In this document: positions 30,594-37,311 of the stretch, piece after piece
Layout of the letters: each line of letters starts with the position of its first letter
How positions within the stretch are numbered: position 1 is the stretch's first letter
Assembly (NCBI GenBank): GCA_017302215.1
Contig: JAFLDX010000002.1
Coordinates: 1-62,195 of the forward strand
DNA length: 62,195 nt
Direction: 5' to 3'
DNA from: Lysobacterales bacterium
GTDB taxonomy: Bacteria > Pseudomonadota > Gammaproteobacteria > Xanthomonadales > Rhodanobacteraceae
Made by a program: the position numbers and the translations under genes
The notes under the pieces: generated by a model
What the model was told of the DNA's origin: nothing
The model's database searches: none
What the model saw: the letters and a program-made list of their open reading frames with translations, nothing else

Positions 30594-31078
30594 CCCCTCA
30601 TCCGGCGCTGCCGCGCCACCTTCTCCCCGTTGACACGGGGAGAAGGGAATGCCGGCGCCTTTCCGCTCGCGCTGTTCCTTCTCCCCGTGCCAACGGGGAG
30701 AAGGTGCCGAAGGCGGATGAGGGGCGCTTCTCGCATCCGATCGCGCCAACACTTCGGTCGAAGCCCGCCCCTCATCCGGCGCTGCCGCGCCACCTTCTCC
30801 CCGTTGACACGGGGAGAAGGGAATGCCGGCGCCTTTCCGCTCGTGCTGTTCCTTCTCCCCGTGCCAGCGGGGAGAAGGTGCCGAAGGCGGATGAGGGGCG
30901 CTTCTCGCATCCGATCGCGCCAACACTTCGGTCGAAGCCCGCCCCTCATCCGGCGCTGCCGCGCCACCTTCTCCCCGTTGACACGGGGAGAAGGGAATGC
31001 CGGCGCCTTTCCGCTCGTGCTGTTCCTTCTCCCCGTGCCAGCGGGGAGAAGGTGCCGAAGGCGGATGAGGGGCGTTTT
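30594..31078. repeat. CTTCTCCCCG palindrome array D, 174-base period
   Basis: Three tandem units begin at 30594, 30768 and 30942 in the 575-base gap between two convergent genes. Each unit has outer arms CCCCTCATCCG and CGGATGAGGGG that pair with each other and enclose two inner hairpins built from CCTTCTCCCCG and CGGGGAGAAGG, with loops TTGACA and TGCCAG. A 38-base tail carrying TCGCATCCGATCGCGCC joins successive units. The last unit ends in GGGGCGTTTTTT, so it could terminate + strand transcription. Related fragments occur at 24470-24560 and 39780-39955. Confidence 0.9.
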
Positions 31079-31101
31079 TTCCACTTGATCGAGCCGTCGG
31101 C

Positions 31102-32559
31102 TCATGGCGAAGGCGACGCCCCCGCCGGCGCGAACGGTACCGGCTCGCCGGAGCCGAGCGTGCGTCGCCAGGTCTCGAGGTGAGCCTCGATGCGTCGCGA
31201 GGTCGCGATCTGTGGCTCCGACGGCGGTTCGATGGCCTCGCGCTTCTCGCGCTCGGCAACCGCCAGGCGCGCCTGCTCGAAGGCTTCCACGAACGACGTC
31301 GTCTGGTTCAATCCGTCCGCCAGCAGTGCCTTGCCGAAGAACGTGATCTCGGACTCGCTGCCGCAGCCGAACGAGGTGCGGTCGCTGCGCGCGGCGGCCA
31401 TGACCAGGGTCGAATCGTCGGCCAGTGCATCGATGAAGCCGCCCGCGTAGCAGGCGTTGACGACGATGACCTTCCAGCGCATCGACGGCGAGGTGCGCAG
31501 GGCCTCGGCGAGATCGTCCGGCGTGATCGCATTGAGCGGCAACGGATCGAGGTTGACGTAAAGCTCGTGATCGGCCGAGCCGTGCGAAGTCAGGTAGAGG
31601 AACAGGATGTCGTTGGCCGGGTCCATGCGCCCGGCGATCGCGCCGAGCGCGCGCTGCAGGTTCGTCCATGTGGCGAGCGGTCGCGTTGCCACGGTATGCG
31701 CGTGGTTCTCGAGCACGAGCACGTGGCCGGCGGCGCCGAAGCGCGTCGCGAATAGACGCTCGACATACTCGGCCTCGTTGCGGAACACGTCTTCGTTGCC
31801 GTCGCCCGCGAAAGCGATCACGTAGAGGTTCGGTTGGCCCGGTCGGCGCGGCTGCAGGGCGGCGATCGCGGCATCGAGCAGGCGCGGCTGGTCGTACATG
31901 ACCGCCTCGGGGTCGAACTCGAGCGGCGCCTGCTCGTCATCGTCCGCCGGCGGAACAGCCGCCTCGTCTGCGGCTTCCGCCGCGACGCGGGCGGCGAGGG
32001 CCGCGCGATCCTGCGCAACGACCGGTGCGCCGGGCAGCCACCACCACGTGACCGCCGAAACGAGGAAGGCGAGCACTGCGGCGAACAGCGTGCGGGCAAG
32101 GGGACGCGGCGACAGCGCGCGGGCCAGCGCGATCAGCACGAACAGCCACCACGCGCGCGACAGCCACTGCAGCGCGACGGCGGCGACCACATGGCCGTCT
32201 GCATAGACGCGTGTCGAGAGCCACTGCAGCGGCGCGTGCACGAAGGCGGCGGTGAAGGCGGTGGCGACGAGCGTGATCGCGGCGACATCCCAGGTGATGC
32301 CGTCACGGCGCAGCATGCGCGTCAGGACCCACGCACCAACCAGGGTCAGCAGGCTGTCGGCGAGGACCGTGACGATGCCGAAGCCGACCAGCCTGCGCGG
32401 CTCCGCGCTGCCGAACCCGTCGGCGAGTGCCTGCATCACGAGGTAGAACACCACCGCGGCGATGAAATGGCCGGCCCCGGCACCGACCACGCGCCCACGC
32501 GGCGGCAGCAGCAGGATTGCGCGCAGGCCGTCGCGCAGCGACGCGCCGAACCGCCGCAT
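31102..32559 (-). CDS. Membrane-anchored C13 (legumain-like) cysteine peptidase
   Basis: A 485-residue protein with an N-terminal membrane domain of about five hydrophobic spans (30-46, 55-80, 92-112, 122-150, 155-178). An acidic linker (about 195-220) follows, then a C13 peptidase domain (about 240-440). The clan CD catalytic dyad is H326 in FLYLTSHGS and C370 in VIVVNACYAGGF. Bacterial C13 proteins are poorly characterised; eukaryotic relatives include legumain and the GPI transamidase subunit. The start ATG 32559 follows a GAGGG ribosome-binding site. An ATG at 32577 would overlap mtnC. It begins 7 bases after the mtnC stop, so it is probably co-transcribed with mtnC. Confidence 0.85.
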   Translation of the reverse strand: MRRFGASLRDGLRAILLLPPRGRVVGAGAGHFIAAVVFYLVMQALADGFGSAEPRRLVGFGIVTVLADSLLTLVGAWVLTRMLRRDGITWDVAAITLVATAFTAAFVHAPLQWLSTRVYADGHVVAAVALQWLSRAWWLFVLIALARALSPRPLARTLFAAVLAFLVSAVTWWWLPGAPVVAQDRAALAARVAAEAADEAAVPPADDDEQAPLEFDPEAVMYDQPRLLDAAIAALQPRRPGQPNLYVIAFAGDGNEDVFRNEAEYVERLFATRFGAAGHVLVLENHAHTVATRPLATWTNLQRALGAIAGRMDPANDILFLYLTSHGSADHELYVNLDPLPLNAITPDDLAEALRTSPSMRWKVIVVNACYAGGFIDALADDSTLVMAAARSDRTSFGCGSESEITFFGKALLADGLNQTTSFVEAFEQARLAVAEREKREAIEPPSEPQIATSRRIEAHLETWRRTLGSGEPVPFAPAGASPSP

Positions 32560-32566
32560 GCTGCCC

Positions 32567-33262
32567 TCAGCCGGCATCGAGTGCGATCGCGTCGAACGTG
32601 GTGACGCAGGCGTGGCGCGCATCGGCCGGGCAGGTCTCGGGTGCGCGCGCAAGCTGGGTTGTCTTGAGGCCCGAGGCGCGGGCCGCATCGAGTTCTTCGA
32701 CGATGTCGGACAGGAACAGGATCGACGCCGGTTCGACGCCGATCGCAGCGGCGATGCGCGCGTAGGAAGCGGCCTCGCGCTTGCCGCCGGTTTCGGTGTC
32801 GAAGTAGCCACTGAACAGTGGGGCGAGATCGCCCGCCTCGGTGTGGCCGAACAGCAGCTTCTGCGCCGGCACCGAGCCGGACGAGTAGACGTACAGCGGG
32901 ATGCCGCGCGCATGCCACTCGCGCAGGGCACGCGCGGCATCGGCGTAGATGTGCGCGCGGAACGCGCCGTCGCGATAGCCGTCTTCCCAGATCATGCCCT
33001 GCAAGGCCTTCAGCGCGGTCGACTTGCGGTCTGCGTCGATCCATCCGACCAGCCGATCGATGAGCTCCTGCTCACTGGCGGCGACCAGGCCGGCTTCCTT
33101 CGCGGCCTCGTGCAGCCAGTGCTGCACGTCGGCGCGGTCGGCATGGGTGACGATGAAGGCCGGCAGGCGCTCGCGTGCGAACGGGAACAGCACGTCCTTG
33201 ACGAAGCGGATCGAACTCGTGGTGCCTTCGATGTCGGTGAGGATCGCGCGGATCGCGGGCAT
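32567..33262 (-). CDS. mtnC: Enolase-phosphatase MtnC
   Basis: MtnC converts 2,3-diketo-5-methylthiopentyl-1-phosphate to the acireductone in two steps (enolisation and dephosphorylation) of the methionine salvage pathway. The 231-residue HAD protein starts with [21 protein letters not shown], where the usual HAD nucleophile motif reads DIEGT. It then shows [15 protein letters not shown], the phosphate and lysine region GGKREAASY, and [14 protein letters not shown] for Mg binding. Its product is the substrate of the MtnD encoded upstream; the 259 bases between them hold a hairpin region. Confidence 0.93.
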
Positions 33263-33521
33263 GACGGGTCGCTGCGGGAGGCGGGCGGCAAGCGTACCAG
33301 CTTGCGCGGACCGGTCAGGCCCGGGCGTGACCGCTATCGATGCCGTTTGACGTCTTTACTTTCCGGGAGCAGGCAGCGAGGCGCGACCACGCGCCTTGCC
33401 GCTGCAGCACCCGCCGCGAGGGTTCGACGTCCGCACGCGCGGACGCAGAAGGAGCGTGCCACGCATACCCCAAGCTGCGTGGCACGCTCCGGTTTTTTTC
33501 GTGGCGCGCGTCCGCGCTCGA
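33263..33521 (+). ncRNA. Candidate small RNA region ending in a strong terminator
   Basis: The gap between mtnD and mtnC has no protein-like reading frame of quality, yet its + strand is full of hairpins (GGCGCG-ACCA-CGCGCC near 33380, GTCCGC-ACGC-GCGGAC near 33429). It ends in a textbook intrinsic terminator at 33451-33499. Both flanking genes are on the other strand, so a + strand terminator here implies a short untranslated transcript starting somewhere between about 33300 and 33400. No promoter is convincing: TTGACG at 33347 lacks a -10 at the right distance. It could alternatively be the end of antisense transcription across mtnC. Confidence 0.4.
33451..33499 (+). terminator. Strong Rho-independent terminator facing the + strand
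   Basis: GGAGCGTGCCACGC (33451-33464) pairs without mismatch with GCGTGGCACGCTCC (33477-33490) around a 12-base loop. Two Gs and then seven Ts (33493-33499) follow. The T-run exists only in the + direction, so it does not serve mtnD, which is read the other way. Confidence 0.85.
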
Positions 33522-34097
33522 TCAGGCTGCCTTGGTCGCCGCGGCCGACGCATGCGGCTGCATGCGCGGAAAACGCTCGGCGATCGCGTCGCCGGTGAAG
33601 CTCGCGACCCAGCCAGCCGGGTTGTTGAACAGCCGGATCGCGACGAAGTACGGCGACTCGCTCATGTCGAACCAGTGGCGCGTGCCGTCGGGCACGCCGA
33701 TCAGGTCGCCCTGTTCGCAGAGAACGTCGTAGACCTTGTCGCCGAGGTGCAGGGTGAACTGGCCGGCGCCGGCGACGAAGAAGCGCACCTCGTCCTCGGC
33801 GTGCGTATGCTCGCTGAGGAACTTCGTGCGGAACGCGGCGCGGTCCGGATGGTCCGGGGTCAGGCTGACGACGTCGACGGTCTGGTAGCCCTCCTCGCGC
33901 ATGAGGCGGTCGATGTCCTCGCGATACGCGGCGATGACCTCGTCCTGGCTCGCGCCCGGCGCGACCGGCTTGTTCGCCTCCCAGCGCTCGAAGCGCACGC
34001 CGGCCTCGCCGAGTTCGCGCGCGATGTCGGCGAACTCGGTCCAGATCGCCAGCGGCGCCTCGCCGCGGTCGTCCCGGTAGATGGTCAAGCGGCTCAT
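33522..34097 (-). CDS. mtnD: Acireductone dioxygenase MtnD
   Basis: MtnD oxidises the acireductone to the keto acid precursor of methionine (Fe form) or to an off-pathway product with CO (Ni form). The 191-residue cupin has the metal-binding segment [17 protein letters not shown] (His, His, Glu) and the fourth ligand His in GTRHWFDMS. It overlaps the mtnB stop by ATGA, so the two are translationally coupled. Metal identity cannot be read from sequence. Confidence 0.93.
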
Positions 34098-34741
34098 GAC
34101 GACAACCTCCTCAGGTCCAGCTCGCAGTTCAGCAGGAACTCGAACGCCTCGATATGGCGTTTGGTTTCCTCCATGTCAACGCCCCAGGTGTAGATGCCGT
34201 GGCCGTCGATCAGGTACCCGTGCAACGGCTTGCCGGCATCGAGCCAGGCATCGACTTGCGCGACGAGTTCGGCCATGTCCTGGGTGTTCGGAAAGACCGG
34301 CAGGTCGAGCACGCTTTCGTGCGTGGTGTAGCCCGAGATCGCCTTCTGCAGCTCCCAGCCCTCGAAACGCACTACGCCCTCGCGCGCATACAGGCGCGAG
34401 GCGACGCTCTGCGCGCGCGAATGCGTGTGCAGGACCGCTCCGGCCGAGGGAAACCGGCGATAGACCTGCGTATGCAGCGCGGTCTCGGCCGACGGCCGGC
34501 GGTTCGTGCCGACCGGCTGCGCGTCGAGGTCGACGACCATCACGTCGTCGACGCCGAGCCGGCCCTTGTCGCGGCCCGACACCGTCACCGCGACGTGGTC
34601 GCCATCGAGGCGCATCGAGAAATTGCTGCTCGTGGCCGGCGTCCAGCCGCGTTCAGCGAGCTCGCGGCCGGCCGCGGCGATCGTTTCCGCGCAGGCGCGC
34701 AGGCGGGCGGGGTCGTACGGGAGCGCAGCGGCAGCAGACAT
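34094..34741 (-). CDS. mtnB: Methylthioribulose-1-phosphate dehydratase MtnB
   Basis: MtnB dehydrates methylthioribulose-1-phosphate in methionine salvage. It belongs to the class II aldolase fold. Seen are [14 protein letters not shown] for phosphate binding, the zinc histidines in [10 protein letters not shown] and [10 protein letters not shown], and an ERGW-type N terminus. ATG 34741 gives 215 residues; an alternative ATG at 34756 adds five. It is the first gene of mtnB-mtnD-mtnC. The earlier-step enzymes (mtnA, mtnK or mtnP) are not in the window. Confidence 0.92.
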
Positions 34742-34881
34742 GCGATGAATGGCCATCCAAACGGACAGGGCCCGACTATACGCGAGTCTCCCGTGCGGTT
34801 CCGGCGCGTCGGCGCCGCGGTCGCGCGCCGTGCGACGCGGTCTGCGATCATCGCGTCTTCGATCCCGCGCGCTGCCGACCG

Positions 34882-36372
34882 ATGCCCGATGCCCTGAATC
34901 CCGTTTTCATCCTCGTCGCCCTCGGCGGCTTCGTGCTCGGCGCGCTCGTGTTCGCCTGGATCGGCCAGCGGCGCGCCCGCGCGGCCGCCGAGGAGGCGCG
35001 CCTTCGCCTCGAGCCGGATCTGGTCGCGCTGCGCGAGCAGCGCGATGCGCTCGCGCGCCAGCACGAGGACGCGCGCAGCCTGGCCGAGCGCCTCGAACGC
35101 GATCGCGGACAGATCGAGCAGCGCCAGCAGGCCGCGCTCGCCGTCGCGGCCGAGCGCAAGGCCGAGGTCGAAGGCTTGCGTTCGCGACTCGCCGAGGCCG
35201 ATGCACGTCACGCCACCGCCAGCGCAGACCTGCATGCGCTGGGCGCGCGCCATGCCGCGCTCGAGGCCGGCAGCGCCGAGCAGGCGCGCGCGGCGGCCGA
35301 GAAGCTTGCCCTGCTCGAACAGGCCGACCAGCGCCTGCGCGAGGCGTTCCAGAACCTCGCCCAGCAGATCCTCGAGGCCAAGGCCGAGCGCTTCCGCGAG
35401 CAGAGCGCCGAGCAGCTCGGCGGCCTGCTCGATCCGCTCAAGCTGCAGCTCAAGGAGTTCCGCGAGGCGGTCACGCAGACGCACGCCAACGAGCAGCGCG
35501 AACGCGGCATGCTCGTGCAGGAGATCCGCTCGCTGAAGGACCTCAACCTGCAGATCAGCCAGGACGCGATCAACCTGACGCGTGCGCTGAAGGGCGACAC
35601 CCAGGCCCAGGGCGCATGGGGCGAGATGGTGCTCGAGCGCGTCCTCGAGGCCTCGGGCCTGCAGGCCGGGCGCGAATACGAACTGCAGTCGAGCTTCACC
35701 GACGACGACGGCCGCCGCCAGCGCCCCGACGCGATCGTGCGACTGCCAGAGGACAAGGTCGTCATCATCGACGCCAAGGTCTCGCTGGTCGCCTGGGAAC
35801 GTTCGGTCGCGAGCCATGACCCCGGCGAGCGCGAGACCGCCCTGCGCGAGCACCTGCAGTCGCTGCGCCGCCACATCGACGGCCTGTCAGGCCGCAACTA
35901 CAGCGACATCGACGGCGTGCGCACGCTCGATTTCGTGCTGATGTTCGTGCCGGTCGAGGCCGCGTTCATCGAGGCGGTGCGCCTCGATGCCAACCTGTAC
36001 AGCCATGCGCTGGCGAAGAACATCTCGCTGATCAGCCCGAGCACGCTGCTCGCCACGCTGCGCACGATCGCCCACCTGTGGCGCATCGAGCAGCGCAACG
36101 AGAACGCCAAGGAGATCGCGCGACGCGCCGCCAATCTGCACGACAACTTCGCCCTGCTCGTCGGCGAACTCGAGAACCTCGGCGCGCAACTCGACAAGGC
36201 GCAAGGCGCGCAGCGCAGCGCGATCCGGCGCCTGACCGAAGGCGGCAAGGGCAGCGTCATGCTGCAGGTGAACAGCCTCGCCGCGATGGGCGTCGCGACG
36301 AAGCGTGCGCTTCCGGGCAACCTGCTCGACGCCGCCGCCGCGACCGACAGCGACGAACCTGGCGAGGCGTGA
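34882..36372 (+). CDS. rmuC: DNA recombination protein RmuC
   Basis: RmuC limits recombination between inverted repeats, apparently as a nuclease-fold protein. The 496-residue protein begins with one membrane span ([21 protein letters not shown]), followed by a long coiled coil (about 30-210). The RmuC domain has [23 protein letters not shown], the PD-(D/E)xK-like [22 protein letters not shown] and [21 protein letters not shown]. It directly precedes the largest palindromic repeat array of the window, an amusing but possibly accidental neighbour for a protein acting on inverted repeats. Confidence 0.93.
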
Positions 36373-36429
36373 AGCGATCGAAGCTCTTTCGGGCCGGGCG
36401 CAATCATTGACCAGTCGCGCCCCGCATTG

Positions 36430-37255
36430 GTGGGAGCGACTTCAGTCGCGATGCTCTTTCCGCCAGGCGCAACCATTGCCCAGTCGCGACACGCTCTTGT
36501 GGGAGCGACTTCAGTCGCGATCTTGGCGTGGAATGCATCGCGGCTGAAGCCGCTCCCACAGGCCTCTCGGGTGCCCGCGACCCGCTTTCGTGGGAGCGAC
36601 CTCAGTCGCGATGCTCTTCCGGGGCAGTCGCACCCATTGCCCAGTCGCGACACGCTCTTGTGGGAGCGACTTCAGTCGCGATCTTGGCGTGGAATGCATC
36701 GCGGCTGAAGCCGCTCCCACAGGCCTCCCGGGTGCCTGCGGCCCGTTTTCGTGGGAGCGACCTCAGTCGCGATGCTCTTCCGGGGCAGTCGCACCCATTG
36801 CCCAGTCGCGACACGCTCTTGTGGGAGCGACTTCAGTCGCGATCTTGGCGTGGAGTGCATCGCGGCTGAAGCCGCTCCCACAGGCCTCCCGGGTGCCTGC
36901 GGCCCGTTTTCGTGGGAGCGACCTCAGTCGCGATGCTCTTCCGGGGCAGTCGCACCCATTGCCCAGTCGCGACACGCTCTTGTGGGAGCGACTTCAGTCG
37001 CGATCTTGGCGTGGAGTGCATCGCGGCTGAAGCCGCTCCCACAGGCCTCCCGGGTGCCCGCAACCCGCTTTCGTGGGTGCGTCTTCAGTCGAGATGCTCT
37101 TCCGGGGCAGTCGCACCCATTGCCCAGTCGCGACACGCTCTTGTGGGAGCGACTTCAGTCGCGATCTTGGCGTGGAATGCATCGCGGCTGAAGCCGCTCC
37201 CACAGGCCTCCCGGGTGCCCGCGACCCGCTTTGGTGGGAGCGATGTCAGGCGCGA
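36430..37255. repeat. GTGGGAGCG palindrome array C, 161-base period
   Basis: The 948-base gap after rmuC consists of about five tandem copies of a 161-base unit, phased at 36430, 36590, 36751, 36912, 37073 and the terminal half at 37233. Each unit carries three related palindromes: GTGGGAGCGACCTCAGTC, then GTGGGAGCGACTTCAGTC about 70 bases on, then an inverted copy (GGCTGAAGCCGCTCCCAC) about 39 bases later. The copy at 37073 is degenerate (GTGGGTGCGTC). Every reading frame here is an artefact of the repeats. The array lies between two convergent genes. The palindrome is the REP family common in Pseudomonas and Lysobacterales. Confidence 0.92.
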
Positions 37256-37282
37256 TGCGTCGAATCAGGGTTGTCCGACGCA

Positions 37283-37311
37283 CCGGTGCCGTCCGCGTGG
37301 GACGGCACCGG
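37283..37311. terminator. Perfect hairpin after the permease gene
   Basis: CCGGTGCCGTCC and GGACGGCACCGG form a 12-base-pair stem with a five-base loop, ending 10 bases beyond the permease stop. No T-run follows in either direction. It probably separates permease transcription from the repeat array. Confidence 0.5.

Follow-up and report, generated by a model that had tools for sequence, protein, structure and literature searches.

Evidence for a putative structured RNA with C-rich loops in the mtnC-mtnD gap of Dokdonella

RNAs with C-rich loops and the mtnC-mtnD gap

The closest described system is sX13 (RF02232) of Xanthomonas. In the published report (PMC3771888), sX13 is described as an Hfq-independent RNA of 115 nt that folds into three hairpins with 4C/4C/5C apical loops and represses mRNAs carrying G-rich motifs near the start codon. 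The same report, dating from 2013, describes sX13 as exclusive to Xanthomonadaceae and tells of other RNAs with C-rich loops, namely the alpha-r7 group and the loops of Staphylococcus RNAIII (PMC3771888).

The window analyzed in this study (the whole stretch of DNA, 62,195 nt) was placed in or adjoining Dokdonella by its named mtnD relatives. Dokdonella is a member of Rhodanobacteraceae. Analysis with the sX13 model revealed matches in all 10 Dokdonella genomes, with 4 of the 10 above the Rfam cut-off. In the window's own genome (G000), where the polA neighbourhood was checked, the sX13 orthologue lies 3' of polA (C8:6062-6176, corresponding to L136:2745-2859) and scores 47.2 bits (gathering score 50). 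The Rfam ar14 model matched this polA-linked stretch, below its cut-off, and not the gap between mtnC and mtnD. Identity of the candidate RNA described below with sX13 was rejected, since the sX13 model gave no match at E<=5 in positions 33200-33600 and the true sX13 lies 3' of polA.

The mtnC-mtnD gap is 259 nt long. As stated in the initial annotation, both flanking genes are on the - strand: mtnC (32567-33262; enolase-phosphatase, Pfam HAD hydrolase) and mtnD (33522-34097; acireductone dioxygenase, Pfam ARD), the latter convergent with the candidate RNA. The partner of mtnD on its upstream side is mtnB (34094-34756, - strand; class II aldolase family). The names mtnC and mtnB are our assumption from synteny. 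In all 90 loci compared, 4 of them duplicates, mtnC lies 3' of mtnD and shares its strand, with gap lengths ranging from 0 to 838 nt. The claim that the stretch before the terminator holds no credible reading frame agrees with our analysis: the longest ATG ORF entirely within the gap encodes 36 aa on the - strand, and no conserved frame was found.

Other features were observed in related gaps and elsewhere in the window. The gap of G001 (L017) contains two adjacent + strand ORFs of ~95 aa, signal-peptide-like or secreted-like, with relatives in G006 (L019); they follow the pattern DICY...CPQAG...TVPEL...GW, and the one ORF tested gave no Pfam match. The gaps of L069, L072, L076, L107, L039 and L048 (~480-530 nt) contain a conserved stretch resembling a small - strand gene (77-aa ORF in L069). 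In the window, positions 30600-31000 hold near-identical repeated blocks of very low folding z (-7.8 and -8.7) that appear to be interspersed repeats. Positions 36400-37300 hold a series of similar ~160-nt units with repeated ORF translations (SRLKSLPQ.. / GATSVAM..), which we take to resemble dispersed repeats of this bacterial order.

The terminator hairpin and its distribution

The terminator hairpin, H3, occupies positions 33451-33490 of the + strand. It is a perfect stem of 15 bp, its arms (33451-33465 and 33476-33490) being 100% complementary and separated by a 10-nt loop, TACCCCAAGC, that contains a CCCC motif. GG (33491-33492) stands between H3 and a run of seven Ts (33493-33499) that turns H3 into a + strand intrinsic terminator. 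The initial annotation had reported a stem and seven Ts at 33451-33499 on the + strand, and this was borne out except for the stem length, given there as 14 bp. A scan of the whole 62-kb window revealed three stem-plus-T5 sites, and H3 exceeds the other two, whose stems are 6 and 7, in both stem and T-run length. A consensus terminator scan, with a loop limit of 8 against the 10 of H3, listed none. Judged from its sequence, the + strand stop signal between mtnC and mtnD is a genuine intrinsic terminator, and it would halt RNA polymerase ahead of mtnDB.

The hairpin was found in five carriers: G000, G009, PS02065 (locus L038), G007 and G002. The expectation that close relatives keep the terminator held for two of them, G009, whose gap again contains H3 (GGTTTTTT), a hairpin plus T6, and PS02065, whose gap contains a diverged H3 with GGCTTTTT, a hairpin plus CTTTTT, both on the + strand. 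It held in part for the more distant Dokdonella G007 and G002, which keep the hairpin and lack the T run, and failed for the gaps of six of the 10 Dokdonella genomes (G001, G003, G004, G005, G006 and G008), where the hairpin was not seen. The three species with a T run form one clade (support 0.92) in a tree built from mtnD and mtnC together, and G007 and G002 fall in the sister group of that clade amid four non-carriers. This placement among non-carriers means that the hairpin is either old, with several losses, or has moved.

Strand was assessed from T runs and base pairs. The T run is on the + strand in all three species having one. Ordinary - strand terminators occur behind mtnD in the same gap of other genera, for example in L073 and L083 (11-bp stem, T7), and therefore the + orientation in the carrier clade stands out. 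Alignment of H3 from five genomes revealed 98.6% of 74 cells paired and four of 15 pairs changed on both sides, as compared with at most 58% and at most two pairs in slid controls; its flaws are one C-C mismatch in G007 and one gap in G009. Read in the + sense the alignment contains five G-U and no A-C wobble pairs, and an RNA of the - strand would have five mismatches instead. As far as the alignment tells, the H3 stem is kept by compensatory changes, with wobbles that pair in the + strand RNA only.

A model of H3 only (R1) was built from the five carrier sequences, so its matches to those five are by construction. At E<=0.5, R1 matched five of 10 Dokdonella genomes, four strongly (G000, G002, G007 and G009) and the fifth, G001, weakly (E 0.08) and outside the mtn locus. 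At E<=0.001, with stricter filters, the matches listed came from three of 117 family genomes, all Dokdonella (G007 not listed), and no other genus appeared among the matches listed. In 80 named loci, L038 was the sole clear match. The match at G009:C2:48049 (E 0.002) was read as no more than a short hairpin and T run at another site. A dispersed repeat or REP-type hairpin was also considered and rejected, as searches of the window's genome and of the genus with the full gap and with H3 returned only the mtn locus plus chance matches; two better-looking matches from the H3 and gap searches (L011 and L012) fall within coding genes. The stretch upstream of H3, hereafter the body, is single-copy in G009, where its sole strong match is itself.

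Upstream hairpins and C-rich apical loops

The further hairpins that the initial annotation placed before the terminator are present in the + strand fold. H1 (33358-33423, + strand) is a long imperfect hairpin that likely forms the 5' part of the candidate RNA, whose 5' end we infer, and H2 (33428-33445, + strand) is a 7-bp hairpin with a loop lacking CCCC in the window's species. The 160 nt at 33340-33499 fold with a z of -5.49, and none of 200 shuffles was as stable. With the terminator left out, z is -3.53 for 33355-33448 and only -1.87 for 33300-33448. Among 519 tested 120-nt stretches of the window, 12 had z at or below about -5, and several of these fall on visible repeats. Since other stretches are as low or lower, the folding signal alone is unexceptional and our case is not rested on it.

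In G009, 126 nt form three hairpins back to back (z -7.41). Comparison of the 100 nt before H3 with shuffles gave, for the + and - strands, -3.1/-1.8 in G000, -5.3/-2.5 in G009, -2.0/0.0 in G007 and -2.4/0.1 in G002, with no excess folding on either strand in L038 (-0.06/0.0). Relative to shuffles, the + strand thus folds better than the - strand in four of the five carrier bodies.

Analysis of the apical loops revealed CCCC or CCCCC in six of the 10 H2 and H3 loops, namely H3 of G000, both loops of G009 and H2 of L038, G007 and G002, so that one or both of the last two hairpins of each of the five carriers bear the motif in the loop. Random stretches of the same gaps gave an expectation of 0.30 CCCC loops and none of 20,000 draws reached six; the motif was noticed post hoc, after looking at the loops, and because the H3 loops of G000 and G009 and the H2 loops of G007 and G002 are common by descent, the effective number is ~4. 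On the + strand, CCCC occurs in 6/32 apical loops of carriers and 0/194 of non-carrier gaps; on the - strand the counts are 0/25 and 3/184. Every CCCC of the gap sits in an H2 or H3 loop in G000 (1), G009 (2) and L038 (1). The candidate has the trait of the C-rich-loop class of small RNAs (sRNAs), stable hairpins whose apical loops carry four or more Cs in a row. Terminator, strand, stem covariation and loop motif are what is read directly from the DNA.

Overall, our analysis leans towards the reading that the mtnC-mtnD gap encodes a short, structured, non-coding + strand RNA with C-rich loops that is lineage-specific. The unannotated + strand RNA proposed in the initial annotation is favoured by the recurrent terminator, the covariation, the wobbles and the C-rich loops; the lack of a promoter in our searches and the unconserved body weigh against it. 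If transcribed, as we infer, the candidate RNA would be ~110-145 nt long, with its 3' end at 33499 of the + strand. By analogy of architecture it would probably act in trans, as sX13 does, its C-rich loops presumably pairing with G-rich stretches near start codons of mRNAs and so repressing translation.

Alternative explanations and known RNAs

Blastn did not match the body of G000 to any other gap, and H3 is the only part alignable across G000, G009, G007 and G002. Body conservation in close relatives was not found; folding propensity alone is common to them, except in L038. As a yardstick, sX13 is identical at 102 of 113 aligned bases (90%) between G000 and G009, which counts against the candidate as an sRNA. 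A consensus scan of 31000-36000 revealed no sigma-70-like sites, using a consensus that may not suit a GC-rich genus, and comparison by eye of the stretch 5' of H1 in three species found no common -35/-10 pair. These results bring forward an explanation that we regard as possible though doubtful, in which the terminator alone is kept and stops stray or divergent antisense + strand transcription before mtnDB. If the RNA has no function, an antisense-blocking terminator would suffice. The alignment of H3 only, a body wholly changed where mtnD is still 90% identical between species, and the missing promoter-like site all fit. However, this explanation does not predict CCCC in the apical loops of the second hairpin in four species or the excess + strand folding of the body in G000 and G009, and G007 and G002 retain the hairpin despite their missing T run.

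The hairpin might alternatively belong to the 3' end of the - strand mtnBD mRNA, as a weak or bidirectional terminator or as a stabiliser of the mtnD 3' UTR, the + strand T run being incidental. The hairpin does lie close 3' of the mtnD stop in four of five carriers (more distant in G009), and the - strand terminators of L073 and L083 occupy the same gap. Yet the - strand has no T run after the hairpin (TTCTG in G000, none in G009), five of five wobble pairs fail on it and the - strand of three of five bodies folds no better than shuffles, and we consider this explanation unlikely.

Far less probable still is a relic, i.e. a terminator left by a lost + strand protein gene. The pair of L017 ORFs and their L019 relatives would suit such a history, but remnants of these ORFs are absent from the gaps of G000, G009, G007, G002 and L038 (best E 0.24, 12 residues in G000), the G001/G006 branch lies outside the carriers' clade, and a scan of the G001 and G006 gaps for + strand hairpins with four or more Ts in a row behind them found none.

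A SAM/SAH riboswitch, 6S RNA or other known methionine-tied RNA family has nothing but its position in the methionine-salvage cluster to recommend it and is dismissed as extremely improbable, as Rfam 15 gave no match over the window at the gathering threshold, a search of 33200-33600 with E as high as 5 brought up no 6S or SAM/SAH family, and the terminator points toward the 3' end of mtnD, away from mtnC. The methionine or SAM link that had been suggested from position accordingly found no supporting family. Permissive Rfam searching of 33200-33600 returned four weak, unrelated families (mir-2253, BASRCI27, Bp2_287 and BTH_s1), far below their cut-offs and rejected as chance. By eye, no GGGG suited to the CCCC loop was seen directly 5' of the mtnB, mtnD and mtnC starts. 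The position of the candidate beside methionine-salvage genes may be accidental.

Targets of the candidate RNA were sought as 11-nt loop-complementary sites with at most one mismatch. G000 had five and G009 13 sites; a reversed control gave eight and 16, so the counts are at chance level. No orthologous start-codon target site common to G000 and G009 was found among 13/18 site contexts inspected. One suggestive site in G009 precedes the start of a gene that we take to be CorC-like, and it was discarded, having no counterpart in the site list of G000.

Returning to the lineage-specific RNA with C-rich loops, a further and more tentative proposal is that it represents a second lineage-specific sRNA of this class, parallel to sX13 in acting on G-rich ribosome-binding sites, in which stems and sequence would be replaced almost wholly from one sister species to the next, the CCCC/CCCCC loops would be retained or even shift between hairpins, and selection would act on the loop motif and not on the sequence. 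A trans-acting sRNA conserving its loops alone would be unusual. If true, the locus would offer a natural test of how little conservation a C-rich-loop sRNA needs, with loop and terminator kept and the rest dispensable, and more than one RNA would carry the sX13 mode of regulation in Lysobacterales. It would also add a regulatory RNA to Dokdonella, a genus for which the literature search found none; that search, covering small RNAs of Dokdonella and Rhodanobacteraceae and C-rich loops, with subscription papers thinly covered, returned nothing on the mtn gap.

An antisense-limiting intrinsic terminator, like the candidate, lies opposite an operon and consists of a hairpin and a T run, but leaves the loop motif and the structured body unexplained. 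The alpha-r7 group, RNAIII and ar14 have C-rich apical loops, as the candidate has, without sequence relation to it, and targeting of G-rich mRNA sites is a feature of RNAIII and sX13. The candidate differs from sX13 in location, at mtnD-mtnC and not downstream of polA in the window's genome, and in conservation, sX13 being matched in all 10 Dokdonella genomes whereas the candidate occurs in five species with an unconserved body. The candidate and sX13 are alike in being short and strongly structured, in their consecutive hairpins with CCCC or CCCCC loops, in ending at an intrinsic terminator and in belonging to the same bacterial order.
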